A stretch of 64,000 nucleotides of DNA from Moringa oleifera (lineage: Eukaryota; Streptophyta; Magnoliopsida; Brassicales; Moringaceae). The stretch spans positions 4,876,501-4,940,500 of the forward strand of contig JAJFZO010000896.1 of NCBI GenBank assembly GCA_021397835.1. The letters are read 5' to 3'. Made by a program: the position numbers and the translations under genes. Below are positions 575 through 44,630 of the stretch, piece after piece. The notes under the pieces were generated by a model. That model had not been told where the DNA came from. It did no database searches and saw only the letters and a list, made by a program, of their open reading frames with translations. Each line of letters starts with the position of its first letter. The first letter of the stretch is position 1.

Positions 575-643
575 GGATGCAACTTGAGAATTTTTCAAGA
601 GGAATCACTTATCCTAATATTACTCTCACCAAAGCATGCTTAA
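575..643 (-). pseudogene. Half-length 5S rRNA copy
   Basis: On the + strand it reads ggatgcaact, then atcctaatattactctcacc, then gcatgcttaa. This is the reverse complement of the 3' half of plant 5S rRNA, from about nt 50 to the end. The 5' half is absent and the spacer follows directly. An A-run just left of it corresponds to a T-run terminator on the - strand. Confidence 0.8.
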
Positions 644-709
644 ATAATCAAGCAGAAGAAAAAATAAATCAAAATAATAAAATCTACAAAAACAATTTTA
701 TGAAAAAAA

Positions 710-826
710 GGTGCAACACAAGGATTTCTTAAAATAACTACCCATCCTAGCACTATTCTCGTTCAACCACGCCTAACTTTGGAGTTCTTATGGGATCCGA
801 TGCATTATCGCTAGTATGATCAAACC
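710..826 (-). pseudogene. 5S rRNA pseudogene, variant 1
   Basis: Near full length (about 117 bp). The order of blocks matches the reverse complement of plant 5S rRNA: tgcaacac, cccatcctag, ctattctcg, ggagttcttatgggatcc, tgcatta. The variant 1 signature is caaccac where 5S has caagcac, which alters the internal promoter box A. The far end reads gatcaaac instead of gatcgcac. Confidence 0.87.
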
Positions 827-984
827 TTAAAGTTTAAAAAATATTAAAGATGAAAGAAAATAATAAAATTAATATAAAAAAGAAAAAACATAAAAAATAA
901 TCAAAAAATAATCAAAAGAAAAAAAAGAAAAACTAAAAAAATAAAAAATAATAAAATTCAAAAATATGTTTTTATAAAAAAAGA

Positions 985-1104
985 GGGTACAACACGAGGA
1001 TTTTCAAGGAAGAATCACCCATCCTGGTGCTATTCTCGCTTAAGCACGTTTAACTTCAAAGTTCTAATGGGATCCAATGCAATAGTACTTGTGTGATCAC
1101 ACCC
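985..1104 (-). pseudogene. 5S rRNA pseudogene, variant 2
   Basis: Near full length. It keeps acaacacgagga, aatcacccatcctgg, tctcgcttaagcacg, gttctaatgggatcc and gtgtgatcacaccc. It begins 275 bp after the previous copy, as in a 5S rDNA tandem array. Confidence 0.88.
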
Positions 1105-1260
1105 AAAAATCTAAAAATTATTAAAAATAAAAAAATAATCACAAGAAAGAAAATAAACATAATGGAGAAAAATATAAAAATATATAAATTAACATAAAAC
1201 CAAAAAGAATCTAAACGAAGAAAAGAAAATAAATTAAAATAATATATTATAAAAATAGAT

Positions 1261-1371
1261 GGTGCAACATGGGTATTTCCTTGAAGGAACCACTCATCCT
1301 AGTACTATTCTCGCCCTTTAACTTCGGAGTTCTATAAGAATCCAACGCATCAATGTTGGTATGACTGCACC
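1261..1371 (-). pseudogene. 5S rRNA pseudogene, variant 3
   Basis: Carries the variant 3 signatures accactcatcc and tcaatgttgg. Most of aagcacgctta is missing (tcgcccttta), so box A is deleted. Variants 4 and 5, present in the next unit, are missing from this unit: only a stub (gcgacaagag, about 1562-1571) follows. Confidence 0.85.
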
Positions 1372-1555
1372 TAAAAAATTCAAAAAGTATTGAAAATGAA
1401 AACACAAAATCATAAAAAAGAAAACAGGAAAGAAAATCATTAAAAAAAAGGCATAAATGAGGAAAATTTTAAAAATAAAAATAAAAATAAAATGAAAGAT
1501 CATCAAATTAAGAAAAAAATAACACAAATTCAAAAATATTTTTTTATCCAAAAGC

Positions 1556-1580
1556 AAGGGTTGCGACAAGAGAAAAAGAT
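1556..1580 (-). pseudogene. 5S 3'-end stub
   Basis: gggttgcgacaagag resembles the 5S 3' end (RC gggtgcaacacgagg). It lies just before the Y block. Equivalent stubs occur at about 5866, 17039, 22105 and 59465, always in the same place, so they mark a fixed junction in the macro-unit. Confidence 0.5.
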
Positions 1581-1729
1581 TTTTTTTAAAAAAATGAACA
1601 GAAATCCAAAATACAAAAAAATTAAAAATAATTTAAAGAATAGATAAAATACAAAAATATGAACAAAATCCTTACAAAAGGAAATAACTAAATGTAAACA
1701 ACAAAATATCAAGAAAACGAATAAAATAG

Positions 1730-3790
1730 ATTAAAGTCTACTAAAAATTATGTAAACACGAAATGATCTAACACAGTGGCATGCCTTTAGAAATACAATT
1801 ATGAGATTTGAAGATCAAACAACATTAGCATGGTAAAAGATATAAGACGGAGAAAGGAAAAACACTCTAGATGGCACTTGAAAAATAACGGGTCACTCCT
1901 TCTATCTACTTTCACTCCTTCATCTTTCTCTCCCACTATTCTTGTATCCAAAAAAAAAAAATTATAGGTAAAGTTTCCATTCAATGTTGGAAAAGTTTGA
2001 TAGGAGTAGCTCCAATAAGACCACCTTTCCCAAACAAACACTAGCATTAAAAAACTTTGATCATGATAACAAATGGATTTAGATAATAGTCTTAATTGGA
2101 AAGTGTTTCAATGTACAAAGTCCTATGTCATGAATTTCAAAGTCCAAGCACTAGATTTAGGCATTTGAAATGTGATCTAAATGTCAAAGCCTCTAACTGC
2201 CATAATTGCTACCAACAAAATTTGGTGTCGACATATTCAAGTAACAAAAAATAGATACGAAAAAAAGTGTTTCTTTTAACATCGGTGAAAGCAATCAACC
2301 ACATAATGTCGTAAAACTCATATCAGAGGAGTTACCAAAAACTAAATTAAAACTAAATAATGGCATAATCCTATAGCGAAACAGTCATCATGAGATTTAA
2401 ACTTCTGCCTAGTTTCTTCCTTTTCTGCATATTAAAAGTTCATCTTGTAAACTAAATGACCTATGTAAACATGGTTAGACAGATAAACTATTAGGTTATC
2501 CAAACAGCAGTATATTTCAATGAGCATCTTAATACTCTACAAAGCTTGTTTTTGAAGTGAAAAATCCTCTGAGTGGAGCATCTTTATATTCTATTTAATC
2601 TGTATATGGAACAACTTATTAAAATCCAATGACAAATATTAGGCCAAAAAAATTAGAATCAGAAATATTAATTTCCCAATCCAATAGCCAAGAACATTCT
2701 ATAAAACTAAAATATTTGTAGAAAGCTCAAAAATAAAAACAAAATAAAATAAAAATGATAAACAACTCACTTGTATGCACATGCATCCATTAATAGTTCA
2801 AACAAGCCAATTCAAGTAAATTGCATATATAACAAAATCAATTTTAGTCAGTTATTTTGACTTTTGTTTGAGAAAAAAAATTAGACAAACTCTTATAATT
2901 AAGCAGTGTACAGTATCCCAAAGGCACTTTCACTTACATTATTTTGGCAGCAACTATTGGGAGCTCACAGAGTTAATGAGTTTTGAACAAAGTAATGTGC
3001 ATCTAAATATGAGTTAAAGCAACTAGATAAAATTTTCATAATGAATTATATCAAAACTTATCACTAATCCAATAACTCATGCAAAGTCAAAGCATGCCTT
3101 CTACAAAGTTAATGAGTTTTAAACATAGTGATATGTATCTAAATATAAGTCAAAGCCACTGGATAAAATTCTCAGAACAAATTATATCAAAACTTATCAA
3201 TAATCCAATAACTCATGCAATGTCGAAGCATGCCTTCTATAAAATTTGATATTTCAAATAAGTGTAACAAAAAGCCACCATAAATACAAAAGCATCTAAT
3301 TGTATTCAGAAAGCCAGTAGCATCTCCTAAACATGATAGACAGATGAGACCTTCCACATACACAATTTCCTTTAGTTAGTATTTGTTGATAAGCTTAATA
3401 ATCTCAGTGGTAATATTTAATTAGCAACTCTATCAACATACCAAACTCGTTTATGGGCTTGTCAAAACATTATAAAATCAATCTAGTGGGTTATATAATT
3501 CTTGAATAGTCATCAAAAAGGAATGCATAATGTCTTCATGAAAACAAATGTATGTCACCAACAGGATATGCGTTTACTACATAGATGAGATGTATTAAGA
3601 AAACATTCAGAGCATCAACATAAAAGAAAACGTAAGATCATTTTCATTTTCTCTCATCTTTCCGATAAGTGTGAATATCCTTATTCTCTTAACAACTTTA
3701 CAGACTTTCTAAAAATGAAAAACAAAAAAAGCAACTTGCATTCTCAAAATGAACAAAACATTGAAACTCATTTTAAGAAAATCGAAGAAA
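1730..3790 (-). repeat. Y block, copy 1 (internally deleted)
   Basis: Gene-derived block shared with 6.05, 13.3, 17.2, 22.2 and 59.6 kb. Aligned against copy 4, the sequence jumps at about 2391 from cagtcatcatgag straight to tttaaacttctgcc, so roughly 0.8-1.1 kb holding the YIF1 exons and the LLATG segment is lost. The remaining right part (2400-3790) matches 14.5-15.5, 18.7-19.9 and 61.1-62.4 kb. A candidate splice donor (RC of actcactt) lies near 2765-2773. No intact coding frame remains. Confidence 0.8.
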
Positions 3791-4307
3791 CCCAAGGAAA
3801 AAAATAGAAGAAAACAAAATACATAAAGTTTAAAAAATTTTGAAAATCATACGAAAATAAATTAAGTAAAATACAATAAAGAAAAAAAATCTAGAAAGAT
3901 AAACAAAAAGAACATCGAAAAAAATAATATTATAAAAAATAAAAGATTAAAAATAATAAAAAGTACTAAAGAAAATCAAATGGAATTAAAAAATTTTAAA
4001 ATATACTGAAAATCAAACATCGGAGACAGTGAGTCAAAGAAAATTCAAAAAGAAATCTAACAAAATCAAAGAAACAAAATGAACATCTAATAAAATGAAG
4101 AAATTAAAATCAAGTCATCGAAATTAAAAAAGAGAAGAGAGGAAAGAGAAGGAAATGAAAAAGAGCAAAAAATAAAACAAATAACAAAAATCAAAGAAAA
4201 GAGCATAATGGAGGAAAATGCAAAAAAATATAAAAAATGAAAGATCATCAAATAAAAGAAAAGAAAATAAATCAAAAATAAAAAAATATTTTTATCCAAA
4301 AAAAGAA
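3791..4307. repeat. A-rich spacer of the macrosatellite
   Basis: Purine-rich spacer joining Y block 1 to a half-5S copy. It is homologous to 7.64-8.14, 19.95-20.57 and 62.4-63.1 kb. No gene is seen. Confidence 0.7.
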
Positions 4308-4376
4308 ATGCAACACAACAATTTCTCAAGAGAAATAACCTAACTTAGTACTATTCTTGCCAAAGCACATATAAAT
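4308..4376 (-). pseudogene. Half-length 5S rRNA copy
   Basis: atgcaacacaaca, then tagtactattcttgcc, then aaagcacata. The 5' half of 5S is missing. It precedes a variant 1 copy, as at 575 and 20568. Confidence 0.75.
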
Positions 4377-4440
4377 AATAAAAAAAGAAAAAATAAATTT
4401 AAAAATAAAATTTAAAAATATTTGTTTATGAAAAGAAAAA

Positions 4441-4556
4441 TGCAACACGTGGATTTCTTAAGAGAACCACCAGTCCTAGTAATATTCTCGCTCAACCACA
4501 TCTAACTTCGAAGTTTTTATGAAATCTGATGCATTAAAGCTGCTATGATCGAACTT
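4441..4556 (-). pseudogene. 5S rRNA pseudogene, variant 1
   Basis: tgcaacacgtggatttctta, cagtcctagtaatattctcg, caaccacatctaacttcg, then gctatgatcgaac. It shares the caaccac change and the gatcgaac end with the copies at 710 and 20697. Confidence 0.85.
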
Positions 4557-4725
4557 AAAAGTTCAAAAAATATTGAAAATGAAAAAAAACAATAATATTA
4601 ATATAAAAAATGAAAAAAAGATAAAAAAGAAACAAAAATAAAATAAAATAAAACAAAAGATAATCAAAAGGAAGAAAAAGAAAAATTAAAAAATTAAAGT
4701 TAAAAAAATTTTTATAAAAAAAAGA

Positions 4726-4841
4726 GTGTGCAACACGAGGATTTTCAAAGATCGTACCATCCTAGCACTTTTCTTGCCCAAGCACGCTTAACTTTGGATT
4801 TTTAGTAGGATCCGATGCATTAGTACTAGTATGATCGTACC
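4726..4841 (-). pseudogene. 5S rRNA pseudogene, variant 2
   Basis: gtgtgcaacacgagg, catcctagcac, ttgcccaagcacgcttaac, taggatccgatgcattag and tatgatcgtacc are all recognisable. The box A region is intact; several bases are lost before catcctag. Confidence 0.87.
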
Positions 4842-5017
4842 TAAAAATTTAAAAATTATTGAAATTAAAAAAATAAAGTCATAAAAAAGAAATAAAAGAT
4901 AATGAAAAAAATATAAAAATAAATTAAAATAAAACAAAAAATAATCCAGAGGAAAAAAGAAAATAAATCAAAAATAATAAATCAGACAAAACATTTTATC
5001 CAAAAAAAAAAAAAGAA

Positions 5018-5138
5018 GGGTGCAAACATGAGTATTTCCTAGAAGGAACCACTCATCCTATTATAACACTTACCGAAGCATATTTAACTTCGGAGTTTTA
5101 ATGGGATCTAGTGAATCAATGTTGGTATGAACACACCC
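5018..5138 (-). pseudogene. 5S rRNA pseudogene, variant 3
   Basis: gggtgcaaacatgagtattt, accactcatcc, cggagttttaatgggatc, then tcaatgttggtatga. tagtactactctc has changed to tattataacactta, a change shared with the copy at 58609. Confidence 0.85.
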
Positions 5139-5318
5139 AAAAAATTCTAAAAGTATTTCTATCAAAAAATTCAAAAATTAGTGAAAATAAAAACATAAAA
5201 TCATAAAACAGAAAAGAACATAATGGAGAAAAATACAAAAAAAAAATAAAAATGGAAGATTATCAAATAAATAAATAAATAATAAAAATCAAAAATATTG
5301 TTTTATTAAAACCAAAAA

Positions 5319-5434
5319 GGTGCAATACAAGAATTTTTAAAGAGGAATCACCCATCTCAGTACTACTCTCACCCAAGCACGCTTCACTTTGTAGTTCAAA
5401 TGGGATCGGTGCTTAGTATTGGTATGATCGCACT
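5319..5434 (-). pseudogene. 5S rRNA pseudogene, variant 4
   Basis: ggtgcaatacaag, cacccatctcagtactac, cccaagcacgcttcac, then the variant 4 signature tgcttagtattggtatgatc. That signature replaces the ccggtgcattagtgctgg segment with a shorter version. Confidence 0.86.
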
Positions 5435-5586
5435 AAAAAATTCAAAAAAAATTAAAAAATGGTCATAAATAAGAAAAAAACATAATTAAAAAAATACAAA
5501 AAAGGAAACAATAAAATCAAAATAAAAAATTATAAAAATAAAAATAAATAAATAATAAAATAAACAAATATTTTTAAAAGAATAAA

Positions 5587-5702
5587 GGTGCGACACAAGA
5601 ATTTTCTAGAATGAATCATCAGTTCTAGTACTACTCCCACTGAGCACACTTCACTTCAGGTTTTAATGCAATTTGATACATTAGTGTTGGTATCATTACA
5701 CT
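5587..5702 (-). pseudogene. 5S rRNA pseudogene, variant 5
   Basis: gtgcgacacaagaattttc, agttctagtactactcccac, gagcacacttcacttcagg, then the variant 5 signature ttttaatgcaatttgataca in place of tctgatgggatccggtgca. Confidence 0.84.
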
Positions 5703-6757
5703 TAAAATTTCAAAACAAAATATTAGAAAGAAAAAAAACAAAATCACAAAAAAGAAAAGGCATAAGAAAAATGTAAAAAATTTAAATTTAAATAAAATGA
5801 AAGATAACAAAAGAAAAAAAATAATAAAAAATAAAAAATTCAAAAATATTTTTATCTAAAAAAGGCAGTGGGACACAAGAAAATGTTTTAAAAAAGGAAA
5901 TAAAGAAAAATAAAAAAAAAGTAAAAACTAAAAGTAATCTAAAGAATAGATAAAATACAAAAATAAGAATAAAATCCTTAAAAAATGAAATAACTTAAAG
6001 TAAACAACAAAAATGTCAAGATAACTATTTTATTTAACTAAAAATTATGTAAACATAAAATGATCTAACACAGTGAAATTGCCTTCAAGAAATACAAATA
6101 TGAGATTTGAAAATCAAAAAGCACTAACATGGTAAAAGCCATAAGAAAATCCACTAGAAAAAGAAAAAGTCAAAAAAATGATGAGTAACTTCCTCTATCT
6201 ATTTTTACTCCTCCATCTTTCTCTCTTTCTTTCTTCCCATCTAAGAAAAAATTATAGGTAAAGTTTTAGATCAATGTTGGAGAAATTTAATTGGAAGAGC
6301 TCCAATAAGACCACATTTCCCATAAAAGCACTAGCATAATACTTTTGTCATTGATAATAAATGGATTTAGATAAAAGCCTGAATTGGAAAGTAATTCAAA
6401 GTACCAAGTCCTATGACTCGAATTTCAAAGCCAAGCCCCAGATTTAGGTGTTTCAAATGTAATCTACCTATCAAAGCCTCTAACTGCCATAATTCTTACC
6501 AACAAAATTTAGTGCCGGCATATTCAATTAATATAAGTTCCGCTTCATACTTAAGTTTCATTGCAATAAAATAAATGCAAAAAAAAGTGTTTATTTTAAC
6601 AATAGTGAATGCGATCAACCACATAATGTTGTAAAACCCATATTAGAGGAGCTAAAAAAAAAACTAAATGAAAACTAGAGAATGGCATATTTTCGTAATG
6701 GAACAGTCATCATGAACCGAGGTGGAGAACAGAACGCAAAAGAGTTAACCAACTTAC

Positions 6758-7085
6758 TTCCCTTTAAGACCCAATGACAAGCTAGCAAGAACAATGTAAG
6801 TACCAAATGCCATAAATGAGATGTATGAGTCTGGGGCATTATATTATAAATTGGGGGCTTATAGAAAAGCCTTCCTCTTACTAGCCCAAATATTCTTGCC
6901 CAATGGCCTTGACAGGAAAACAAAAAGGAATATTGTGGGGGAAGAAAAAAGGTGCCAATAATAAAATTCGAGAAGGATATCGACTTACCTTGTGCAAGAA
7001 TGGAAATAAGACAACCTCAACTCATTCCTCACATAATGGTCATTTATTTGAAAGTAATACTGTGGATCCAAAAATGAGCTACTTA
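6758..7085 (-). pseudogene. YIF1: YIF1 (HRF1-family) exon fragments, copy 2
   Basis: YIF1 proteins are multi-pass membrane proteins of the ER-Golgi system that partner Yip1. Two exons are readable on the - strand. Exon a (about 7085-6989) encodes DPQYYFQINDHYVRNEL and, after a frame shift, LFPFLHK up to a GTAAGT donor. Exon b (6907-6758) encodes a GHW..RI..LVRGRL.YKPPIY segment and then, in another frame, NAPDSYISFMAFGTY and SLSLGLKGK before GTAAGTT. The NAPD motif and the first membrane segment are family hallmarks. One base is missing between PIYDI and NAPD, so it cannot encode the protein. The downstream membrane exons were not recognised. Confidence 0.85.
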
Positions 7086-7267
7086 TATGTTCATTTCAAA
7101 ATAATTAAAAAAAAAGCAAGAAAAACATGTAATAATTGATAATTAATGAATCAAATCAAAAGAGAAACTAAGAAAAAAAGGAAACCAACAAAATCTAAAA
7201 AAGTAAAATATCTCATAGCAACTTAGGTTTAACAAGAAAAGAATAAGCATGTAAGAATCCATGCCTG

Positions 7268-7440
7268 TAGCTAGTAGAAAAGCAATAACTTCTTGTTTAA
7301 ATAGTGCAATTTTTGCCGCCACTATGATCGATGCTTCTTCATCCATGAAAAAAGAAGCACCTGAGATACTGCAAAGTAAGCCTTCTCCATCGAGACCATC
7401 AAATCCCCTACAAGCTTGCATGCACCACATTTTCTTTATA
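7268..7440 (-). pseudogene. Conserved exon-like segment 'LLATG', copy 2
   Basis: On the - strand this region is open across MDEEASIIVAAKIALFKQ and ends in LLATG at a splice-donor-like site. The site is GC here (caggcatgg) and GT in copy 3. Just upstream, another frame reads GDLMVSMEKAYF. It recurs at 14254, 18427 and 60864. I do not recognise the protein, and frame breaks are present. It lies upstream of the YIF1 exons in every copy except copy 5, where it is absent. Confidence 0.5.
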
Positions 7441-8144
7441 TTAAGGTACCCTCAAAATCAAACAATTTGCCTATAATTCAGGACATCCAAATGCCATTGA
7501 ATAAAAGGCAACTCCATCTACAAGGCCTGTCCACATGAGGTTTAAACTTCTACCCACTTTTTTGTCTTTTTATCAATTAAAAGTTTCTTATTCTCTTAAC
7601 AATTTTACTGACAATCTAAAAAAGAAAAACAAAAGAAGCAACTTGTATTCTCAAAAATGGGCAAAACATTGAAACTCATTTTAAAAAAATCAAAGAAACC
7701 CAAGGAAAAAAATAGAAAAAAGTAAAATACAAAAAGTTATTAAAAATTTGAAAATCAAATAAAGAAAATAATAAAAATTATATGAAAATAAATTAAAAAA
7801 TACAAGAAAATAAAAACTCCAGAAAAAATAAATAAAAAAAATACTAAAAATCAAATAATAAAGAAAAAGAATCAAAAGAAAATAAAAAAATAGACCTTAC
7901 AAAACCGAGGAAACAAAAATAAAATCCAATAAAATGAAGAAATTAAATAAAAAAATTATAAAAATTAAAAAAGAGAAGAAAGGAAAGAAAAGGAAAAGAA
8001 AAAAGCAAATAAATAAAATAAATCAGATAAAAGAGCATAATGGAAAGAAATGCAAAAAAAAAAAAAAATGAAAGATCTTCAAATGGAAGAAAAGAAAATG
8101 AACCAAATTTTTAAAAATCAAAAAATATTTTTATCTTAAGAAAT

Positions 8145-8187
8145 GATGCAATACGAGAATTTCTTAGAAGGAATCACCCATCCCAGA
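8145..8187 (-). pseudogene. Half-5S copy, type A, truncated
   Basis: gatgcaatacgagaatttct up to cacccatcccag, then an abrupt switch to spacer. Only the last third of 5S remains. Confidence 0.7.
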
Positions 8188-8643
8188 ACAAATATAAAAA
8201 TTAAAATGAAAATCCAAAAAAAGTAATAATGCAAAAAATCATGAAAGATGAAAAAAATTAAATATGAAAGCAAGGAAAAGAAACGAAATGAAATAGGAAA
8301 GAAAATCAAATGAAATTAAAGAAAACAAATTCTAAGAATATACTGAAAATCAAATAGTAAAGAAAAGGAATCAAAGAAAATTGAAAAATAAACCTCACAA
8401 AACCGAGGAAACAAAAATAAAATCCAAGAAAATGAAGAAATTAAATAGAAAAGTTATCAAAACTGAAAAAGAGAAGAAAGGCAGAAAAGGAAAAGAAAAA
8501 AGGAAATAAATAAAATAAATCAAAGAAAAGAGCATAATGGAAGGAAATGCAAGATAAAAAAAAAAAAATGAAAGACCTTCAAATGGAAGAAAAGAAAATA
8601 AACAAAATTTTAAAAAATCAAAAAATATTTTTATCTTGAAAAA

Positions 8644-8712
8644 GGATGCAATACGAGAATTTCTTAGAAGGAATCACCCATCCTAGTATAGCTCTCGCCA
8701 AAGCACATTTAA
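8644..8712 (-). pseudogene. Half-5S copy, type A
   Basis: ggatgcaatacgag, cacccatcctagtatag, ctctcgccaaagcacattt. Followed by type A spacer (aataataaacatt). Confidence 0.78.
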
Positions 8713-9195
8713 ATAATAAACATTATACGAAAATAAATTAAAAAATACAAGAAAATAAAAAGTCTAGAACAAATAAATAAAAAGAACATCCAAAAAAAGT
8801 AATAATGTAAAAATCATGAAAGATGAAAAAAATTAAATATTAAAGCAAGGAAAAGAAACGAAATGAAATAGGAAAAAATTCAAATGAAATTAAAAATGCA
8901 AATTCTAAGAATATATTGAAAATCAAATAGTAAAGAAAAGGAATCAAAGAAAATTGAAAATAAACCTAACAAAATCAAAGAAACAAAAATAAAACCCAAT
9001 AAAATGATGAAATTAAATAAAAAAAGTTATCAAAATTGAAAAGAGAAAAAAGAAAAAGAAAAAATAAAATAAATAACAAAAACCAAAGAAAAGAGCATAA
9101 TGGAAGGAAATGCAAAAAAAAAAAAATGAAAGATCATCAAATGGAAGAAAAAAGAAAATAAATGAAAAATCAAAAAATATTTTTATCCAAAAACA

Positions 9196-9264
9196 GGATG
9201 CAACACGAGAATTTGTTAGTAGGAATCACCCATTCTAGTACTACCCTCGCCAAAGTACGTTTAA
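9196..9264 (-). pseudogene. Half-5S copy, type B
   Basis: ggatgcaacacgag, cacccattctagtactac, cctcgccaaagtacgttt. Followed by the type B spacer aaccaaaaagaagaaaaatg. Confidence 0.78.
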
Positions 9265-9679
9265 ATAACCAAAAAGAAGAAAAATGTAAATCAAAAATAA
9301 TAAAAAGATGAAAGAAAATGAAATAGGAAAGAAAATCAAATAAAATTAAAAAACAAATTCTGAGAATACATTAAAAATCAAATAATAAACAAATAGAATC
9401 AAAGAAAATTGAAAAATAAACCTAACAAAACCGAGGAAACAAAAATAAAATCCAATAAAATGAAGAAACTATATACAAAAAGTTGTCAAAACTGAAAAAG
9501 AGAAAAAAGGAAAGAAAAGGAAACGAAAAAAGAAAATTAATAAAATAAATCAAAGAAAAGAGCATAATGGAAGGAAATGCAAAAAAAATAATAATAATAA
9601 ATAAATGAAAGATCTTCAAATGGAAGAAAAAAAATAAACAAAATTTTAAAAAATCAAAAAATATTTTTATCTTGCAAAA

Positions 9680-9748
9680 GGATGCAATACGAGAGTTTCT
9701 TAGAAGGAATCACCCATCCTAGTATAACTCTCGCCAAAGCACGTTTAA
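9680..9748 (-). pseudogene. Half-5S copy, type A
   Basis: ggatgcaatacgagagtttc, cacccatcctagtataac, tctcgccaaagcacgttt. Type A spacer follows. Confidence 0.78.
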
Positions 9749-10249
9749 ATAATAAATATAATATGAAAATAAATTAAAAATACAAGAAAATAAAAAGTCT
9801 AGAAGATAAATAAAAAGAACATCCAAAAAAAGTAATAATGTAAAAATCATAAAAGATGAATAAAATTAAATATGAAAGCAAGGAAAAGAAACGAAATGAA
9901 ATAGGAAAAAAATCAAATGAAATTAAAAAAACAAATTCTAAGAATATATTTAAAATCAAACAATAAAGAAAATGACTCAAAGAAAATTAAAAATAAACCT
10001 AAAAAAATCAAAGAAACAAAAATAAAATCCAATAAAATGATGAAATTAAATAAAAAAGTTACCAAAATTGAAAAGGAAAAAAATGAAAAGGAAAAGAAAA
10101 AAATTAAATAAAATAAATAAAAAATCAAAGAAAAGAGCATAATGGAAGGAAAAGCAAAAAAAAAAAAAAAAAGAAAGAAAGAAAGATCATCAAATGGAAG
10201 AAAAGAAAATAAATCAAAAATCAAAAAATATTTTTATCCAAAAAAAAAA

Positions 10250-10318
10250 GTATGCAACACGAGAATTTCTTAGCAAGAATCACCCATCCTAGTACTACTC
10301 TCGCCAAAGCACGTTTAA
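10250..10318 (-). pseudogene. Half-5S copy, A/B chimera
   Basis: The 5S part is type B (gcaacacgag, tagcaag, tagtactactctc) but the spacer after it is type A (aataataaacattatatg). It breaks the strict alternation, as expected after unequal exchange inside the 5S half. Confidence 0.75.
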
Positions 10319-12928: not shown

Positions 12929-13734
12929 AACCAAAAAAAAAAAAGAAATATATAAGTCAAACATAATAAAGAAATGAAAGAAAATCAAATAGGAAAGAAA
13001 ATCAAATAATAAAGAAAAAGAATCAAAGAAAATCAAAAAATAAACCTTATAAACTGAGGAAACAAAAATAAGATCCAACAAAATGATGAAATTAAATAAA
13101 AAAGTTATCAAAACTAAAAAAAGAGAAGAAATGAAAGAAAAGGAAAGAAAAAAAGGAAATAAATAAAATAAATCAAAGAAAAGAGCATAATGAAAGGAAA
13201 TGCCAAAAAGGAAAAAAATGAAAGATCTTCAAATGGAAGGAAAGGAAATAAACCAAATTTTTAAAAATCAAAAAACATTTTTATCTTAAAAAAGGATGCA
13301 TAAAAGCACTAGCATAAAAATACTTTTGTCACTTCTAACAAATAGATTTAGATGAAAGTCTTAATTGGAAAGCATTCCAAAGTACCAAGTCCTATGACTT
13401 GAATTTCAAAATCCAAGCCCCAGCTTTAGATGTTCAAATGCAATCCACCTATCAAAGCCTCTAACTACCATAATTTCTATTAACAAAATTTGGTGCAGAC
13501 ATATTCAAGTAATACAACTTCTACTTCAAACTTAAGTTTCGTTGCAAAAAAATAAATGCGAAAAAAGTGTTCTTTTAACATCAGTGAAAGCGATCAACCA
13601 TATAATATTGTTGAAGCCATATCAGAAGAGTCACCGAAAACTAAATGAAAACCAGACAATGGCATATTTCTATAATGGAACAGTCATCATGAACTGAGAT
13701 GGAGAAAAGAACACAAAAGAGTTAACCAACTTAC

Positions 13735-14056
13735 TTCCTATTAAGACCCAATGACAAACCAAGAAGAGCAATGCAGGTACCAAATGCCATAAATGGGATG
13801 TATAAATCTAGGGCATTATATCATAAATTGGGTGCTTATAGGAAAGCCTTCCTCCTACTAGCCTAGATATTCTGATCCACAGGCCTTGATAAGAAAACTA
13901 AAAACATATTGTAAGGGAAGAAAAAAGGTCCCAACAATAAAATTCAAGAAGTATATCGACGTACCTTATGCAAGAATGGAAATAAGACAATCTTTAACTT
14001 ATTCCTCATATAATGATCGTTTACTTGAAAGTGATACTGTGGATCAGAGAAGGAGT
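13735..14056 (-). pseudogene. YIF1: YIF1 exon fragments, copy 3
   Basis: Exon b (about 13884-13735) encodes NALDLYIPFMAFGTCIALLG and SLGLNRK before a GTAAG donor. This is the cleanest copy of the NAPDLYIP motif plus first membrane segment. Exon a (about 14056-13965) encodes FSDPQYHFQVNDHYMR. The base missing before NA-D is missing here too (gatataatgcc). Stops occur in the PIYD frame. Non-functional. Confidence 0.85.
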
Positions 14057-14253
14057 TACTTATGTGTTCATTACGAAATCACAAAAAAAAAAGCAAGAAA
14101 AACATGTTGCAATTGATAACTAATGAATCAAATCAAAAGAGAAATTATAAAAAAAAAAAAAAGAGGAAAACCAACAAAATCCAAAAAAGTTTTAAAATAT
14201 GTCACAGCAACTTAGGTTTAATAAGAAAAGGATAAGTATGTAAGAATCCATAC

Positions 14254-14450
14254 CTGTAGCTAACAAAGAAGCAACAAGTTCTTGTCTGTATGGTGCAATT
14301 TTTGCCACCACTGTGACCGATCCGTCTTCGTCCACGAAAAAAAAAAGAAGCATTACTCTAAGATGTTACAAAATAAGCCTTTTCCAATGGCACCATCAAA
14401 TCCCGTGCAACCTTGCATGCCCCACCTTTTCTTGTATTAAGGTACCATCA
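14254..14450 (-). pseudogene. LLATG segment, copy 3 (best preserved)
   Basis: The - strand reads VDEDGSVTVVAKIAPYRQEL then VASLLATG, followed by a canonical GTATGG donor at 14253-14248. Upstream, another frame reads ARDLMVPLEKAYFVT, split by a stop before the VDEDG part. Protein identity is unknown to me; the pattern suggests a once-coding exon. Confidence 0.5.
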
Positions 14451-15587
14451 AAATCAAATGATTTGCCTATAATTTAGGACATTTAAATGCTGTTGAATAG
14501 AAGGCGGCTCTATCTGCAAGGCCTATCCACATGAGCTATGCAAACATGGACAAATAGATAAACCATTAAGCTCATCCAAACAGCAGTATATTTCAATGAA
14601 CATCTCAATATTCTTCAAAGCTTGTTTCTGAAGTGAAAAATTCTCTGAGTGGAGCATCTTTCTACTCTATTTAATTTGTATATGGAACAACTTATTGAAA
14701 TCAAATGACAAATATTAGGCAAAAAAAAAAATCATAACCAAAGATATCAATTTCCCGATCTAGCAACCAAGAACATTTCATAAAACTAAAATATTTATAG
14801 AAAGCTTTAAAAAAAATAAAATAAGATGGATAAACAACTCACTTGTATGCACATGCATCCATTAACAGTCCAAACAAGCCACAAAAAGTCAACTATATGT
14901 ACAGCAAAATCAATTTCAGCGAGTTGATTCGACTTTTGTTTCAAAAGAAAAATCATTAGACGCAATCTTATAAGTAGACAGCCTGTAATATCTTAAAGAG
15001 CACTTTCACTTACATTATTTCGCCAGTATATTGTAGGGAGCTCATAGAGTTAATGAGTTTTGAACATAGTGGTCTACATCTAAATATAAATCAAAGCAAT
15101 TGGATAAAATTCTCATAAGCAATAATATAAAAACTTATCACTAATCCAATAACTCGTGCAAAGTCAAAGCATGCCTTTCACTAAATTTAATATTTCAAAT
15201 AAGTGTAATAAAAAGCTACCACAAATACAAAAGCATCTAATTGTATTCAGAAAGCTCATAGGATCTCCTAAAGATGATAGACATATGAGACCTTTCACAT
15301 ACAAAGTTTCTTTTGGTTAAGCATTTGCTAATAAACTTAGTAATCTTAGTGGTAATTTCTATTTGACAACTTTATCAACATGCCAAACTCATTTATGGAC
15401 TTGTCAAAACATTGTAAAATAAATCTAGTGGGTTATATAATGCATAATAGTCATCAAAACAGGACGCATAATGTTTACATTGTAAAATAAATTTAGTGCT
15501 AATTCTTGAATATCACCAAAGCACGCTTAATCAAAAAGAAAAAAATAAAAAATAATAAAATCTAGAAGCATTTTTTATTAAAAAAAA

Positions 15588-15705
15588 GGGTAAAACATAA
15601 GGATTTCTCAAGAGAACCACTCATCTTAGAACTATTCTTACTTAACCATGTCTAACTTTGGAGTTTTTTTAGGATCCAATGCATTAGTACTAGTATGATC
15701 GAACT
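15588..15705 (-). pseudogene. 5S rRNA pseudogene, variant 1
   Basis: gggtaaaacataaggatttc, accactcatctt, taaccatgtctaactttgg, gcattagtactagtatgatc, then gaac. More decayed than the other variant 1 copies. Confidence 0.82.
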
Positions 15706-15866
15706 TAAAAGTTTAAAAAATATTAAAAACAAAAGAAAACAATAAAATTAATATAAAAGGAAAAAAAGAGCATAATAAAAAATAGAAAAATAAAAATAAA
15801 ATAAAATAAAAGATAATCAAAAGGAAAAAAATAATAAAATTTAAAAATATTCTTTTATTAAAAAAG

Positions 15867-15985
15867 AGTGTAACACGAGGATTTTCAATGAAAAATCATC
15901 CATCCTAGTACTACTCTCACCTAAGCACACTTTACATTAGAGTTCTAATGGGATCTAGTGCATTAGTACTTGTATGATGGCATCC
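15867..15985 (-). pseudogene. 5S rRNA pseudogene, variant 2
   Basis: gtgtaacacgaggattttc, atccatcctagtactactct, taagcacactttac, gttctaatgggatc, gcattagtacttg. About 119 bp long. Confidence 0.86.
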
Positions 15986-16165
15986 AAAAATCTAAAAATT
16001 ATGAAAAATTAAAAAATAAAGTCATAAAAAAGAAAAGATATGTAATGAAAAAAAATATAAAAATATAAAAATAAATTAAAATAAAAAATAATCCAAAGAA
16101 AGAAAAGAAAATAAATCAAAAATAATCAAGCAAAAAAAATATTTTATCATACAAAAACAAAGAAC

Positions 16166-16283
16166 GGTGCAACACAAATGTTTCGTAGAAGGAACCACTC
16201 ATCATAGTACTACTCTCGCCCAAGTACGCTTAACTTTGTGGTTCTAATGGGATCTAGTGCATCAATGTTGGTATGATCATACC
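16166..16283 (-). pseudogene. 5S rRNA pseudogene, variant 3
   Basis: ggtgcaacacaaatg, accactcatcatagtactac, tctcgcccaagtacgctta, gttctaatgggatc, tcaatgttggtatgatc. Among the better kept copies of this variant. Confidence 0.87.
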
Positions 16284-16473
16284 TTAAAAAATTTAAAAAG
16301 TACTTCTACTAAAAAATTAAATAATTATTAAAAATAAAAATAGAAAATCATGAAAAAGAAAAAAACATAATGGAGAAAAATACAAAAAAGAAACAAAAAT
16401 AAAATAAAAAATAAAAAATTATCAAATAAATAAATAATAAAATCCAAAAGTATTATTTTGTCAAAACAAAAAA

Positions 16474-16590
16474 TGACGCAATACAAGGATTTTTCAAGAG
16501 GAATCACCCATCTTAGTACTACTCTTGCCCAAGTACGTTTAATTTTGCAACTTAAATAGGATCGATGCTTAGTATTGGTATGATTGCACT
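16474..16590 (-). pseudogene. 5S rRNA pseudogene, variant 4
   Basis: tgacgcaatacaagg, aatcacccatcttagtacta, cttgcccaagtacg, gatgcttagtattggtatga. Signature shared with 5319, 21546 and 58921. Confidence 0.86.
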
Positions 16591-16748
16591 CAAAAATTCA
16601 AAAAAAAATTAAAATTAAAAAAAGATAATAAACAAGAAAAAGCATAATGAAAAAAATACAAATAATAAAATAACAAAATAAAAATAAACAATTATAAAAA
16701 ATATAAATCAACAATAATAGAATAAACAAATATTTTTATAAGAATAAA

Positions 16749-16866
16749 AGTGCAACACAAGAATTTCTTAGAAGGAATCACCCATTCTAGTACTCCTCCC
16801 GCTCAAGCACGCTTAACTTTGGGTTTTAATGCAATTCGATACATTAGTGATGGTATAATTGCACTC
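16749..16866 (-). pseudogene. 5S rRNA pseudogene, variant 5
   Basis: agtgcaacacaagaatttct, aatcacccattctagtact, ctcaagcacgcttaactttg, ttttaatgcaattcgataca, ttagtgatggtataattgca. A stub (gtgtgacacaag, about 17041) follows 290 bp on. Confidence 0.86.
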
Positions 16867-17920
16867 AAAATTTCAAAACAAAATATTAAAAAGAAAAAAA
16901 GAAAGCAAATCACAAAAAAGAAAAGGCATAAAAGAGGAAAATGTAAAAAAAAATTAAAATAAAATAAAATGAAAGATAAATAAAAGAAAAAAATTAATTA
17001 AAATTAAAAATTTTAAAAAATATTTTTTAACTAAAAAAAGGTGTGACACAAGCAAATATTTTTTAAAAAATGAAGAAAAATAAAAAAACTAAAAAACTAA
17101 AAATAATCTAAAAAACAAATAAAATACAAAAATATGAATAAAATCCTTAGAAAATGAAAAAAAATTGAAAGTAAACAACAAAAATATCGAGATAACAAAA
17201 CAAAATAAATTCAACTAATATTTATATAAACATAAAATGATCTAACATAGTGGGATGCCTTCAAGAAATACAAGTATGAGATTTGAAAATCAAAGAACAC
17301 TGACATGGTAAAAGCTATAAGAAAATCCATTGGAAAAAGGAAAAATCACTCTAGTTGGCACCTGAAAAATCATGGGTCACTCCTATTTATTTTTACTCCT
17401 CCATCTTTCTCTCACTTCCTATCTAAGAAAAATTATAGGTAAAGTTTCCATTCAATGTTGAAGAAGTTTGATAGTAGTAGCTCCAATAAGACCACCTTTC
17501 CCATAAAAGCACTAGCATAAAAATACTTTCATCATTGATAACAAATTGATTTAGGTGAAAGTCTTAATTGAAAAGCATTTCAAAGTACCAAGTCATATGA
17601 CTCGAATTCCAAAGTCCAAGCCCCATATTTAGGTGTTTTAAATGTAATCTACCTATCAAAACATCTAACTGCCATAATTCCTACCAACAAGATTTGGTGC
17701 CGACATATTCAAGTAATACAACTTCCACTTGAAACTTAAGTTTCATTGCAAAAAAATAAATGCGAAAAGAAGTATTTCCTTTAATATTAGTGAAGGTGAT
17801 CAACCATATAATGTTGTAGAACCCATATAAGAAGAGTTAAGAAAAACTAAACGAAAACCAAACAATGGTATATTTGTGTAGTGGAACAATCATCATGAGA
17901 TGGAGAACAGAACACCAAAG

Positions 17921-18240
17921 ACCCAATGACAAGCCAATAAGAACAACGTAGGGATCAAATGCCATAAATGATATGTATAAGTCTGGGGCATTATATCATA
18001 AACTGGGGGCTTATAAGAAAGCCTTCCTCTCACTAGCCCAGATATTCTTGTCCAATGGCCCTTACAAGAAAACCAAAAAAAAAAAAAAAAAATATTGTGG
18101 GCGAAGAAAAAAGGTGCCAACAATAAAACTCAAGAAAGATATCGACTTACCTCACGCAAGAATAGAAATAAGACAACCTTAACTCATTCCTCACATAATA
18201 ATCATTCACTTGAAAGCAATATTGTGGATAAGAGAAAGAG
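17921..18240 (-). pseudogene. YIF1: YIF1 exon fragments, copy 4
   Basis: Exon b (about 18062-17921) reads CKGHWTRISGLVRGRLSYKP then PVYDI in one frame, and continues as the membrane segment in another. This is the copy with the clearest GHWTRI..GRLSYKPP stretch. Exon a (about 18240-18151) ends at GTAAGT. The PIYDI/NAPD frameshift is present. Confidence 0.86.
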
Positions 18241-18426
18241 TTACTTATATGTTCATTTTGAAATTAAAAAAAAAAAAAGAGCAAGAAAACATGTAGTAAT
18301 TGGTAACTAACGAATCAAATCAAAAGAGAAATTAAAAAAAAAAACCAACAAAATCTTAAAAAGTTTTAAAATATCTCATAGCAACTTAGGTTTAACAAGA
18401 AAAGGATAAGCATGTAAGAATCCATG

Positions 18427-18610
18427 CCAGCTAATACAGAAATAATACCTTCTTGTTTGGATAGTGCAATTTTTGCCACCACTATGATCGATCCTTCTTC
18501 ATCCATGAAAAAAAGAAGCATTACTCTAAGATGTTACAAAGTAAGCCCTCTCCATCGGCACCACCAAATCCCCTACAACCTTGCATGCACCACGTTTTCT
18601 TGTATTAAGG
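18427..18610 (-). pseudogene. LLATG segment, copy 4
   Basis: Homologous to 14254-14450. The donor region has decayed (tccatgccagctaatac) and stops interrupt the frame. Confidence 0.45.
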
Positions 18611-19950
18611 TACCCTCAAAATCAAACAATTTGCCTATAATTTAAGACATCCAAATGCCATTGAATAGAAGGCAACTTTATCTACAAGACCTGTCCATAT
18701 AAGGTTTAAACTTCTGCCAAGTTTCTTGCCTTTTTGTATATTACAAGTTCATCTTGTAAACTAAATGATCTATGTAAACATGGGTAGACAGATAAATCAT
18801 CAAAATCATTCAAACAACAGTATATTTCAATAAGCATCTCAATACTCTTCAAAGCTTGTTCCTGAAGTGAAAAATCCTCTCAGTAGAGCATCTTTCTATT
18901 TCATTAAATCTATATATCGAACAACTTATGGAAATAAAATGACAAATATTAGGCCAGAAAAATCAGAATCAAAGATATTAATTTCCCAGTTCAGTAGCCA
19001 AGAACATTCCATAAAACTAAAATATTTGCAAAAAACTCAAAAATTAAAGGAAAATAAAATAAGAAGGATAGAAAACTCACTTGTATACACATGCACCCAT
19101 TAATAGTCCAAACAAGCCAATTCAAGTCAATTGCATCTACAGCAAAATCCATTTAGTTAATTGATTTGACTTTTACTTGAGAAGAAAAATAATCAGATAC
19201 ACTCTTATAAGCAGGCAACGTACAATGTCCTAGAGGCACTTTCACTTACTTATTTTGCCATCATATTGTTGGGAGCTCACAAAGTTAATGAGTTTTGAAC
19301 ATAGTGGTCTGCATCTAAATATAAGTCAAAGCAACTTCATAAAATTCTCATAAGGAATAAAATCAAAACTTATCACTAATCCAATAACTCGTGCAAAGTC
19401 AAAGCATGCCTTTTACTAAATTTAATATTTCAAATAAGTGTAATAAAAAGCTACCACAAATACAAAAGCATCTAATTGTATTCAGAAAGCTCATAGGATC
19501 TCCCAAAGATGATAGACAGATGAGAACTTCCATATACACAATTTCTTTTAGTTAAGCATTTGGTGATAGGCTTAATAATCTCAGTGGCAATTTTTACTTA
19601 ACAACTCTATCAACATATCAAACTCGTTTATGGACTTGTCAAAACCAAAATCAATCTAGTGGGTTATATAATTCTTGAATAATCATCAGAAAAGGGATGC
19701 ATAATGTCTTCATGAAAACAAATGCATGTCAACAACAGGGTATGTATTTACCACACAAATGAGATGTATTGAGAAAACATTTAGAGCATCAAGATAAAAG
19801 AAAAGGTAAGATCATTTTTATTTTCTCTTGTCTTTCCAATAAGTGCGGATATCCTTATTCTCTTAACAACTTTACTGACCTCAAAAAAAAAAAAAACAAA
19901 AAAAGCAACTTGTATTCTTAAAATTGACAAAACATTGAAACCTATTTAAA

Positions 19951-20465
19951 AAAATCCAAGAAACCCAAGGAAAAATAATAGAAGAAAACAAAATACAAAA
20001 AGTTTAAAAAAATTTTAAAAATCAAATGAAGAAATTAATGAAAATTATATGAACATAAATAAAATAAAATAAAATATAGGAAAATAAAATAAAAAACAAA
20101 AAAAATAAAAAGTCTAGAACAAATAAACAAAAAGAACATAAAAAAAACGCAATAATGTAAAAAATCATAAAAGATGAAAAAAATATATAAAAGAAAGATA
20201 AGAAAGGAAATGAAATAGGAAAGAAAATCAAATAAAATTAAAATACAAATTCTCATAATATACTGAAAATCAAAAAATAAAGAAAGGGAATCAAAGAAAA
20301 TTAACCTAACAAAACCAAAGAAAAAAAATCCAATAAAATGAAGAAATTAAAAAAATGTTATCAAAATTGAAAAAGAGAAGAAATGAAAGAAAAGGAAAAA
20401 AAAAGGAAAACAAATAAAATAAATAACAAAAATCAAAGAAATGAGCATAATGGATGCAAATGCAA

Positions 20466-20498
<33 letters not shown>

Positions 20499-20567
20499 CA
20501 TCAAATATAAGAAAGAAAATAAATCAAAAATTAAAAAATCAAAAAATATTTTTATCCAAAAAAAAAA
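19951..20567. repeat. A-rich spacer with (TA)n tract
   Basis: Macrosatellite spacer homologous to 3791-4307. At 20466-20492 it contains a run of about 13 TA units within aaatgcaa..taaaagatcatc, where sister copies have a short A-run. No gene. Confidence 0.75.
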
Positions 20568-20636
20568 ATGCAACACGAGAATTTCTTAAGAGGAATCACC
20601 CAACTTAGTACTACTCTCGCTAAAGCACGCTGAAAT
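20568..20636 (-). pseudogene. Half-length 5S rRNA copy
   Basis: atgcaacacgagaatttctt, cacccaacttagtactactc, tcgctaaagcacgctgaaat. Precedes a variant 1 copy, as at 575 and 4308. Confidence 0.78.
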
Positions 20637-20696
20637 AATCAAAAAATAAATAAATAAAAAAATAAAATCTAAAAATATTTTTTTTTATAAAAAGAA

Positions 20697-20814
20697 GGTT
20701 CAACACCAGAATTTTTCAAGAGAACCATCTATCGTAGTAATACTCTTACTTAACCACATCTACTTTCGGAGTTCTTATGGGATCTGATGCATTAATGTTG
20801 GTATGATCGAACTT
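20697..20814 (-). pseudogene. 5S rRNA pseudogene, variant 1
   Basis: ggttcaacaccagaattttt, taaccacatctactttcgg, gttcttatgggatctgatgc, gttggtatgatcgaac. Shares the aaccaca box A change. Confidence 0.85.
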
Positions 20815-20988
20815 AAAAGTTCAAAAAATATTGAAAATGAAAGAAAACAATAAAAGTAATATAAAAGAAAAAGAAAATAGCATAATGAAAAAAGATTGAA
20901 AACAAAAACAGAATAAAATAAAACAAAAGATAATCAAAAAGAAGAAAAAGGGAAAAAATAAAAAATAATAAAATTCAAAAAATAAAGA

Positions 20989-21107
20989 GGGTGCAGCACG
21001 AGGAATTCCAAGGTGGAATCACCCATCCTAGTACTATTCTCGCCCAAGCACGCTTAACTTTGGATTTCAGATGAGCTTCGATACATTAGTCCTGGTACGA
21101 TCGCACT
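20989..21107 (-). pseudogene. 5S rRNA pseudogene, variant 2 (best preserved)
   Basis: Among the copies closest to plant 5S rRNA: gggtgcagcacgagga, aatcacccatcctagtact, ttctcgcccaagcacgctta, atacattagtcctggtacg, atcgcac. Boxes A and C of the internal promoter are largely legible. It still has changes in loop A and in the ggatttcag segment, so I treat it as a pseudogene. Confidence 0.88.
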
Positions 21108-21271
21108 TAAAAATTTAAAAATTATTAAAAAAACAAAGTCATAAAAAAGAAATAAAACATAATGGAGAAAATATAAAAATAAATTTAAAATAAGACAAAA
21201 AATAATCCAAAAGAAAAAAAGAAAATAAATCAAAAATAATAAATTAGAAAAAAATATTTACCAAAAAAAAA

Positions 21272-21367
21272 TGTGCAACAAGAGTATTTCGTAGAAAGAA
21301 CCAGTCATCCTAGTACTACTGTCGCCCAAGCATGCTTAATTTCGAAGTTCTAATGGGATGATCGCAC
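21272..21367 (-). pseudogene. 5S rRNA pseudogene, variant 3, internally deleted
   Basis: tgtgcaacaagagtatttcg, agtcatcctagtactactg, tcgcccaagcatgctta, gttctaatgggatgatcgca. About 22 bp between gggat and gatcgca are missing, giving 96 bp. Confidence 0.86.
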
Positions 21368-21545
21368 AAAAAAAAAATTCAAACAGTATTAAAAATGAAA
21401 ACATAAAATCATTAAAAAAAAGAACATAATGGAGAAAAATGCAAAAACAGAAACAAAAACAAAATAAAAAAATGAAAGATTATCAAATAAACAAGTAAAT
21501 AGAAAATAATAAAATCCAAAAGCATTGTTTTGTCAAAACAAAAAA

Positions 21546-21662
21546 TGATGCAATACGAGGATTTCTCAACAGGAATCACCCATCTTAGTACTACTCTCGC
21601 CCAAGCACATTTAACCTTGCAGTTCAAATAGGATCGATGCTTAGTATTGATATGATCACACT
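21546..21662 (-). pseudogene. 5S rRNA pseudogene, variant 4
   Basis: tgatgcaatacgaggatttc, aatcacccatcttagtacta, ctctcgcccaagcacattta, gatcgatgcttagtattga, tatgatcacactc. Confidence 0.87.
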
Positions 21663-21821
21663 CAAAAATCTAAAAAAAAATTAAAATTATAAAAAAGTCA
21701 TAAATAAGAAAAAAAACATAATGAAAAAAATATAAATAATAAAATAATAAAATAAAAAATAAAAGATTATGAAAAAATATAAATAAAAATAATAAAATAA
21801 ACAAGTATTTTATGAGAATAA

Positions 21822-21938
21822 AAATGCAACACAAGAATTCTTAGAAGGAATCACCCATTCTACTACTACTCTCGCTCAAGCACGCTAAACTTCAGGTTTT
21901 GATGCAATTCGATACATTAGTGTTAGTATAATTCTACT
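21822..21938 (-). pseudogene. 5S rRNA pseudogene, variant 5
   Basis: aatgcaacacaagaattctt, aatcacccattctactacta, ctcgctcaagcacgctaaac, ttttgatgcaattcgataca. A stub (gatgtgacacgag) follows at about 22108. Confidence 0.86.
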
Positions 21939-22196
21939 CAAAATTTTAAAACAAAATATTAAAAAGAAAAAAAGAGAGAAAATCACAAAAAAGAAAAGGC
22001 ATAAGGGAAGAAAATGTAAAAAAATAAAAATTTAAATAAAATGAAAGATAAACAACAAAAAAAAAGAATTAAAAATAAAAATAAAAAATACTTTTTATCT
22101 AAAAAAAGGATGTGACACGAGAAAATGTTTTAAAAAAGAAAATGTAGAAAAATAAAAACTAAAAATAATCTAAAGAACATATAAAAGAAAAAATAT

Positions 22197-23273
22197 AAAA
22201 GCATGCCTTCAAGAAATACAATTATGAGATTTGAAGACCAGACAACACTAGCATGGTAAAAGCCACACGAAAATCCATTGGAGATAGGAAAAGTCACTCT
22301 AGATAGCACCTAAAAAATGACGAGTAACTCCCTCTATCTACATTTACTCCTCCATCTTTCTCTCCCTCTCTCTTCCTATCTAAGAAAAATCATAGGTAAA
22401 GTTTTCATTCAATGTTGGAGAAGTTTGATAGGAGTAGCTCCAATAAGACCACCTTTCCCATAAAAGCACTAGCATAAAAATACTTTTGTCACTGATAACA
22501 AATGTATCTAGATGAAAGTATTATTTGGAAAGCGTTTCAAAGTACCAAGTCATAGGACTTGAATTTCAAAGTCTAAGCCCTAGATTTAGGTGTTTCAAAT
22601 GTAATCTACCTATCAAAGCCTCTTACTGCCATAATTAACACCAACAAAATTTGGTGCCGACATATTCAACTAATACAACTTCAACTTCATACCTAAGTTT
22701 CATTGCAAAGAATAAATGTGAAAAGAAGTGTTTTTTTTAACATAAGTGAAAGCAATCAAACACATAATGCTATAGAATCTATATTAGAGGAGTTACCAAA
22801 AACTATATGAAAATCAAACAATGGCATATTTTTGTAATAGAACAGTCATCATGACCCAAGATTGAGAACAAAAGACGAAAGAGTTAACCGACTTACTTCC
22901 CATTAAAACCCAATGACAAGCTAGCAAGAACAACGTAGGTACCAAATGCCATAAATGAGATGTATAAATATGGGGCATTATATCATAAATTGGGGACTTA
23001 TAGGAAAGCCTTACACCCACTAGCCGAGATATTCTTGTTCAATGGCCTTGAAAGGAAAACAAAAAAGATACTAAGGGGGAAGAAAAAAGGTGCCAACAAT
23101 AAAATTCAAGAAGGATATCAATTTATTCTGTGCAAGAATGGAAATAAGATAACCTTCAATTTATTCCTCACATAATGATCATTTACTTGAAAATGATACT
23201 ACAGATAAGAGAAACACCTACTTAACTGTTCAATTCCTAATCATAAAAAAAAAAAAGCAAGAAAAACATGTCA
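22197..23273 (-). repeat. Y block, copy 5 (right-truncated at the island edge)
   Basis: Matches the other copies from gcatgccttcaagaaatac up to gcaagaaaaacatgt at about 23273, then diverges into caatcccaaaggccataagc. The LLATG segment and right part are absent. A YIF1 amino-terminal exon follows at 23784-23905 in the same orientation. Confidence 0.82.
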
Positions 23274-44560: not shown

Positions 44561-44630
44561 TTCAGTTTTTGTTTTCTTTGAAGGGGAAGAGAAGAGTGCC
44601 GAAGTAGTAAACCCTATCACCTTTTTGCAG

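Follow-up and report, generated by a model that had tools for sequence, protein, structure and literature searches.

We analysed a 64,000-nucleotide stretch of the Moringa oleifera genome (assembly GCA_021397835.1, contig JAJFZO010000896.1, positions 4,876,501 to 4,940,500 of the forward strand; hereafter the window) that carries a composite repeat made of an array of 5S-like ribosomal DNA (rDNA) monomers and a fragment of the protein-coding gene YIF1. An earlier note had placed one order of blocks, in one orientation, at about 0.6, 4.3, 15.6, 20.6 and 58.3 kb. Self-BLAST of the window bore this out: the unit-to-unit matches are kilobase-long, collinear, 74-91% identical and all in the same orientation (+ strand against + strand), and they begin near 0.1/0.6, 3.8/4.4, 15.5, 20.1/20.6 and 58.25 kb. 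Since such long matches keep the same order, chance is ruled out as the source of the units. Along the + strand, each unit runs from an A-rich part through the 5S array and a block with YIF1 sequence (the Y block) to a tail block (T0/T). The composite comprises five macro-unit copies (u1 to u5) and a sixth fragment (p), all in one common order: u1 spans 0.1-3.96 kb, u2 3.84-7.6 kb, p 13.3-15.5 kb, u3 15.5-20.06 kb, u4 20.07-23.27 kb and u5 58.23-62.57 kb, the last followed by A-rich DNA to the window end. An expanded A-rich array lies between u2 and p, and a 35-kb island separates u4 from u5. The blocks listed in the note do recur; it had left out the tail block, which belongs to the unit, and had overlooked p, a partial copy made of Y block and tail without a 5S array. 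As bounded here the units measure about 3.2-4.6 kb and stand in tandem from 0.1 to 23.3 kb. The repeat thus fits the use of the term macrosatellite in PMC12692304, namely satellite DNA with monomers >500 bp, possibly composite, and its head-to-tail units with 5S similarity also fit a 5S-derived satellite.

The blocks were bounded by self-BLAST, with nhmmer for the 5S sequences, a monomer tree for array positions, tblastn for YIF1 and, for the tails, a divergence alignment; all are annotated on the minus strand. Unit u1 begins with an A-rich part (123-643) ending in a half-5S at 575-643 (5S nt 52-118), followed by three full 5S-like monomers in positions 1-3 (644-1557), a truncated Y block (1558-2244) and a tail block T (2386-3961) containing a 136-bp tandem duplication (2967-3243). 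The A-rich part of u2 (3843-4369, half-5S 4308-4369) overlaps the BLAST-bounded end of the u1 tail; its 5S array (4370-5870) holds five full monomers (4440-5703) and, as the alignment also indicates, a stub of the 5S 3' end beside the Y block (5871-7133), after which comes the start of the tail (T0, 7134-7585). The expanded A-rich satellite (7709-13299) is directly abutted by the Y block of p (13299-14107), and the tail of p (14108-15492) leads to u3, with five full monomers (15493-17030), Y block (17031-18294) and tail (18295-20060). Unit u4 consists of an A-rich part (20068-20634, half-5S 20568-20634), five full monomers plus stub (20635-22140, again with alignment; for one monomer the match starts only at 5S nt 32), and a Y block (22141-23275). 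In u5, monomers of positions 2-5 (58231-59440; the start was set by eye, the BLAST match beginning at 58252) precede the Y block (59441-60730) and tail (60731-62574), and a further A-rich satellite with half-5S (62630-64000) runs off the window. Thus the five 5S-like copies named in the note are present in u2, u3 and u4, but u1 has three full copies and u5 four.

The 5S-like monomers

A canonical plant 5S sequence served as nhmmer query and as reference for substitution counts. With it, nhmmer found 38 5S-like matches in the window, none of them on the plus strand; 22 are near-full copies and 16 are shorter, the latter starting at 5S nt 52 in 13 cases and at nt 53 in one. Rfam 5S_rRNA gave 15 matches that reached the gathering score (38.1-55.8 bits). 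The full-type matches are 70-84% identical to canonical 5S by nhmmer; 21 of the 22 align from within the first 8 bases of the gene, and a T run follows the 5S end. Monomers that do not border a half-5S (n = 17) are 262-310 bp long, and their spacer is rich in T when read on the 5S strand. Near nt 90, 38/38 copies have letters in two alignment columns where canonical 5S has none, although some copies have lost neighbouring bases. This suggests that all copies descend from one deviant 5S variant.

In a maximum-likelihood tree of the 22 monomers, the five array positions require four label changes, the minimum, versus 17 for the unit labels, and the five position clades have bootstrap values of 81-100. 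Consequently, either divergence within the array preceded its copying as a block, or monomers at equal positions were homogenised between units. The junction between Y block and array, with its 5S 3'-end stub, is common to the five units aligned, u4 having an apparent internal deletion there.

The copies are decayed. Substitutions were counted in 21 of the 22 full copies (one was dropped for misalignment), an inherited change being counted once for each copy that carries it. C>T or G>A accounts for 394 of 623 substitutions relative to canonical 5S. By context, such changes affect 92 of 250 CG, 80 of 189 CHG and 222 of 905 CHH sites, and any change is seen at 134 of 1111 A/T sites, CG and CHG sites thus being affected most often; an excess of C-to-T change is expected of methylated plant DNA. 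The observed/expected ratio of CHG is 0.54 in the array versus 1.09 at 23.3-46 kb. None of the 22 full copies retains box A, the intermediate element (IE) and the box C core all exactly as in canonical 5S, and the mean folding z-score of the full copies, against mononucleotide shuffles, is -0.66 versus -2.42 for canonical 5S. With the RNA polymerase III box motifs given in PMC7215508, four of the 22 full copies have box A and none of the 38 copies has box C; the half copies are cut too short for box A, and the box C motif fails partly through one near-end change common to nearly all copies. Judged from identity (70-84%) and promoters (0/22 exact, 5/22 within one mismatch in each element), the 5S part has probably ceased to be a functional 5S gene.

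Raw divergence from canonical 5S is 143/837 in the promoter region versus 292/1017 in the 5' part. After the founder stage, however, the promoter region kept pace with the other parts of the 5S, at 2.47 tree steps versus 2.60 and 2.68 (one-sided p = 0.56). Promoter constraint, if any, was therefore over before the units arose.

The YIF1 fragment and the edge of u4

Pfam PF03878 (YIF1) matched one of the nine reading frames given, at 30.6 bits with a cut-off of 27.6. We then used 120 plant YIF1 proteins as tblastn queries, inspecting the two best and one named query. YIF1 residues ~50-141 were placed in u2 (exon 3 and exon 4 remnants at ~7089-6757 with adjoining intron, where Pfam, tblastn and alignment were combined), p (~14066-13734), u3 (18263-17918), u4 (23225-22896; tblastn and alignment) and u5 (60687-60354). 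The note's Y block with YIF1 exons is accordingly present in these five copies; in u1 no recognisable exon was placed. The exon labels used here are a convenience taken from the protein matches, not from transcripts. All five YIF1-bearing copies lack a single base near residue 113, which shifts the frame, and several copies carry stops, among them a premature stop in exon 3 of u4; no copy holds a functional YIF1 frame. In the copies, tblastn gave no match to at least the final third of the protein. Because the frameshift is common to 5/5 copies, the YIF1 piece was probably already dead before amplification.

Residues ~20-60 were placed by tblastn at one site only, beyond the right edge of the u4 Y block. 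Here u4 runs on (23276-23900) through YIF1 intron 2 to a well-preserved exon 2 at 23778-23900, whose end is followed by GTAAGT, whereas the four other aligned copies quit the u4 sequence at ~23271 (u4 coordinate) for the common tail block. The simplest reading is that the 23.3-kb edge of u4 is probably the ancestral junction from before amplification. If so, the run-on into intron 2 and exon 2 would reveal which gene was the donor, where the joining took place and where the later break, from intron 2 to T0, occurred. Whether the window is the birthplace of the satellite, u4 having kept at the array edge the series of 5S array, dead YIF1 exons 4 and 3 and the intron 2 and exon 2 that originally adjoined them, is in our estimate evenly balanced.

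The A-rich satellite and the tail block

The A-rich spacer and half-5S of the earlier description are both present, but the half-5S belongs to the A-rich repeat itself, whose units come in two types. In the expanded satellite the units are ~470-570 bp long, each with a half-5S; 11 units excised between neighbouring half-5S copies measure 465-570 bp. Identity is 91-96% within types and 83-86% between them, one unit being intermediate. When the two consensuses are compared by eye, the spacer of the A-rich unit has landmarks in common with that of the 5S monomer. An origin by array-edge deletion of spacer and 5S nt 1-51, followed by separate amplification, is likely.

The tail block is up to ~1.8 kb long, and its T portion (61185-62574 in u5) is common to u1, p, u3 and u5. 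No Pfam match above cut-off was found in three minus frames of the u5 tail or in three plus and three minus frames of the u3 tail; an FcoT match (E 0.033) and one other (E 0.26) fell under the cut-offs and were taken as chance. Neither blastn nor tblastx detected similarity between the tail block and the 23.3-58.2 kb island.

Divergence between units and order of events

Divergence between units is 0.134-0.149 in the 5S part, 0.133-0.145 in the Y block, 0.099-0.141 in T0/T and 0.112 in the A-rich part (one comparison). Between u2 and u5 it is 0.049-0.072 in all three blocks compared, and the Y-block tree is star-like except for u2+u5. Given the similar divergence across blocks, the blocks of a unit were probably copied together. 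Along with the position-sorted monomer tree, the common Y/5S junction and the frameshift in 5/5 copies, this supports the note's proposal that a 5S array was linked to a gene fragment and that the composite was then amplified. The note also had the array decay before the linkage; the decay may have come either before the joining or only after it.

These results lead us to regard the locus, with considerable confidence, as a composite, non-coding and largely inert 5S-derived macrosatellite. Its history may have run as follows. A short array built from a single deviant 5S variant, whose spacer was rich in T on the 5S strand, would have become linked to an intron in a dead duplicate of YIF1, and the monomers would have decayed with an excess of C-to-T change, presumably through methylation. 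The 5S array, the YIF1 piece and the tail would then have been amplified in tandem as one block, in a burst and at least one later copy event (u2, u5), by either unequal recombination or rolling-circle reinsertion. At the array edge, a truncated 5S monomer with a long spacer would have been amplified separately, giving the satellite with two unit types. Most likely the repeat makes no product, and any effect it has would be as heterochromatin.

Several observations weigh against parts of this reading. The low CHG ratio is not peculiar to the array, being 0.45 in the 46-58 kb stretch, and methylation is unsupported by CpG, whose observed/expected ratio exceeds that at 23.3-46 kb (0.30) both in the 5S arrays (0.78) and in the A-rich array (0.71). 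Of the full copies, 5/22 deviate by no more than one base in any of the three promoter elements and 5/22 fold better than shuffles (z < -1.65), while the box C core is exact in 8/16 half copies; transcription of some copies is therefore possible. The 14 sites at which the copy consensus departs from canonical 5S all lie outside nt 50-90, a hint of promoter constraint earlier than the founder stage. In A/T columns, change is rarer in the 5S part than in the spacer (p = 0.0002), which may reflect constraint or merely poor alignment of the spacer. As to joint copying, u1 stands out by a higher divergence in its 5S part (0.185), and short segments of 5, 46 and 97 bases give 0.20, 0.11 and 0.08. 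The Y tree gives no root and no order of the units beyond the u2+u5 pair. Finally, gene conversion between equal positions could sort the monomer tree in the same way, so that decay before amplification is not its sole reading.

Alternative explanations

The 5S-like monomers might be not 5S rDNA but tandem copies of Cassandra, a terminal-repeat retrotransposon in miniature (TRIM) with a 5S promoter in its long terminal repeats (LTRs), in which case the half-5S units would be Cassandra LTRs. Cassandra forms tandem arrays resembling 5S rDNA (PMC7215508), and all elements covered in PMC10853983 have a ~70 bp 5S core around the promoter, close in extent to the half-5S (nt 52-118); moreover, the 14 consensus differences all lie outside the promoter-containing nt 50-90. 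However, the match of 21/22 full monomers from the first 8 bases of 5S and the T run after the 5S end speak against the element, as does the absence of promoter constraint after the founder stage (one-sided p = 0.56). The methionine-tRNA primer-binding site (PBS) TGGTATCAGAGC, allowed up to two mismatches, has seven matches in the window and none in the arrays, a test that copy decay limits, and the unit consensuses come at best within 3 and 4 mismatches of its 12 bases. With regard to an LTR-internal-LTR structure, there was by eye one kind of 5S monomer, and the A-rich units come in two types; no such alternation was apparent by eye in the 5S monomers, LTR ends and the polypurine tract (PPT) not having been sought by program. 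We consider a Cassandra origin unlikely.

Capture of gene fragments, introns included, is typical of Helitron and Pack-type elements, and one of these could have captured the 5S array and the YIF1 exons and then multiplied as a mobile element, with the tandem order a secondary outcome. Yet all units are head-to-tail in one orientation with common internal junctions, and by eye their outer edges differ in unit position, u4 ending in YIF1 intron 2 and u5 starting in the spacer at 5S monomer 2; capture by an element is thus very improbable, though no search aimed at Helitron ends or terminal inverted repeats was made. A false duplication of contigs or mis-joining of macro-units during assembly is scarcely to be expected: a mis-join at 23.3 or 58.2 kb is possible, but the units differ at ~5-15% of bases and carry unit-specific deletions, which false duplication does not create. 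Amplification of a 5S-YIF1 composite remains the reading that we prefer.

The island between u4 and u5

The island (23.3-58.2 kb) contains YIF1 exon 2, RING and WD40 pieces and retrotransposon remains. As the edges of the island fall at different places of the unit, a simple insertion into the array is rejected. On the + strand, a RING-finger piece (33565-33640; Pfam, at cut-off) and a WD40 piece (44619-44800; Pfam, below cut-off) were found; the latter matches plant COP1 structures (E 4e-24). They probably belong to a COP1-like gene or pseudogene whose introns are long. A Gag-like retrotransposon open frame on the minus strand (55686-56279) has 52 protein matches, the best at 68% identity, several of which carry precomputed PF00098 or PF03732. 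Another open frame in the window, of 253 aa, gave no protein match at E 1e-5. Degenerate telomere-type AAACCCT repeats occur at 51177-51796 and 53976-54459, beside an inverted repeat pair (50345-51043 and 52824-53533, 72%). The island also holds a direct duplication of ~720 bp (25903-26618 and 30388-31107, 91.7% identity), and 22-bp minisatellite arrays lie at 48700-48813, 49621-49734 and 52486-52634.

Discussion

The birth of a satellite is usually hidden, its founder having been lost or homogenised. In this composite the parts are still recognisable as a 5S gene and YIF1 exons, and one edge keeps an apparent pre-amplification junction. Its nested levels (5S monomers, half-5S units of two types and the macro-unit) can be dated against each other. 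If the window is indeed the birthplace, it would document, in order, the fusion of a gene fragment with a decayed 5S array into a single amplifying repeat. A practical caution also follows: 5S probes and Rfam matches in plant assemblies can mark decayed composite repeats.

The earlier note knew of no described repeat of such make-up, and the open-access literature agrees: among the matches listed, no title or abstract opening describes a macrosatellite that joins 5S to a protein-gene fragment. On the B chromosomes of Plantago lagopus, PLsatB arose from an amplification that included 5S rDNA fragments, and a B-specific cluster of a 325-bp satellite is similar to 5S (PMC6410184). Like the composite, PLsatB, the Hoplias malabaricus satellite and PcP190 of frogs are tandem and 5S-like without being 5S genes; unlike it, they are mentioned with neither a protein-gene fragment nor a multi-kilobase composite unit. 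In pike (Esox), blocks of 5S units form larger, higher-order repeats, as here, and are densely methylated (PMC5437419), but the Esox genes are titled potentially functional, whereas the present composite is decayed and has a gene fragment within its unit. The short-type 5S region of wheat 5BS shares highly diverged 5S units with it (PMC5688495); that array is interrupted by transposons and yielded no genes or pseudogenes, in contrast to the gene fragment inside the Moringa repeat. In gnetophyte rDNA units a pseudogenised 5S has likewise been amplified within the repeat unit, but these units also carry functional 5S, and no protein-gene fragment is mentioned for them (PMC6526317). Cassandra arrays are similar in being tandem 5S-bearing units of plants; they differ in having PBS, PPT and LTRs (PMC7215508), no PBS having been found in the arrays described here. 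Satellites derived from 5S are thus already known in fish, in frogs and in a plant, and it is the combination of 5S with a protein-gene fragment that appears unusual.

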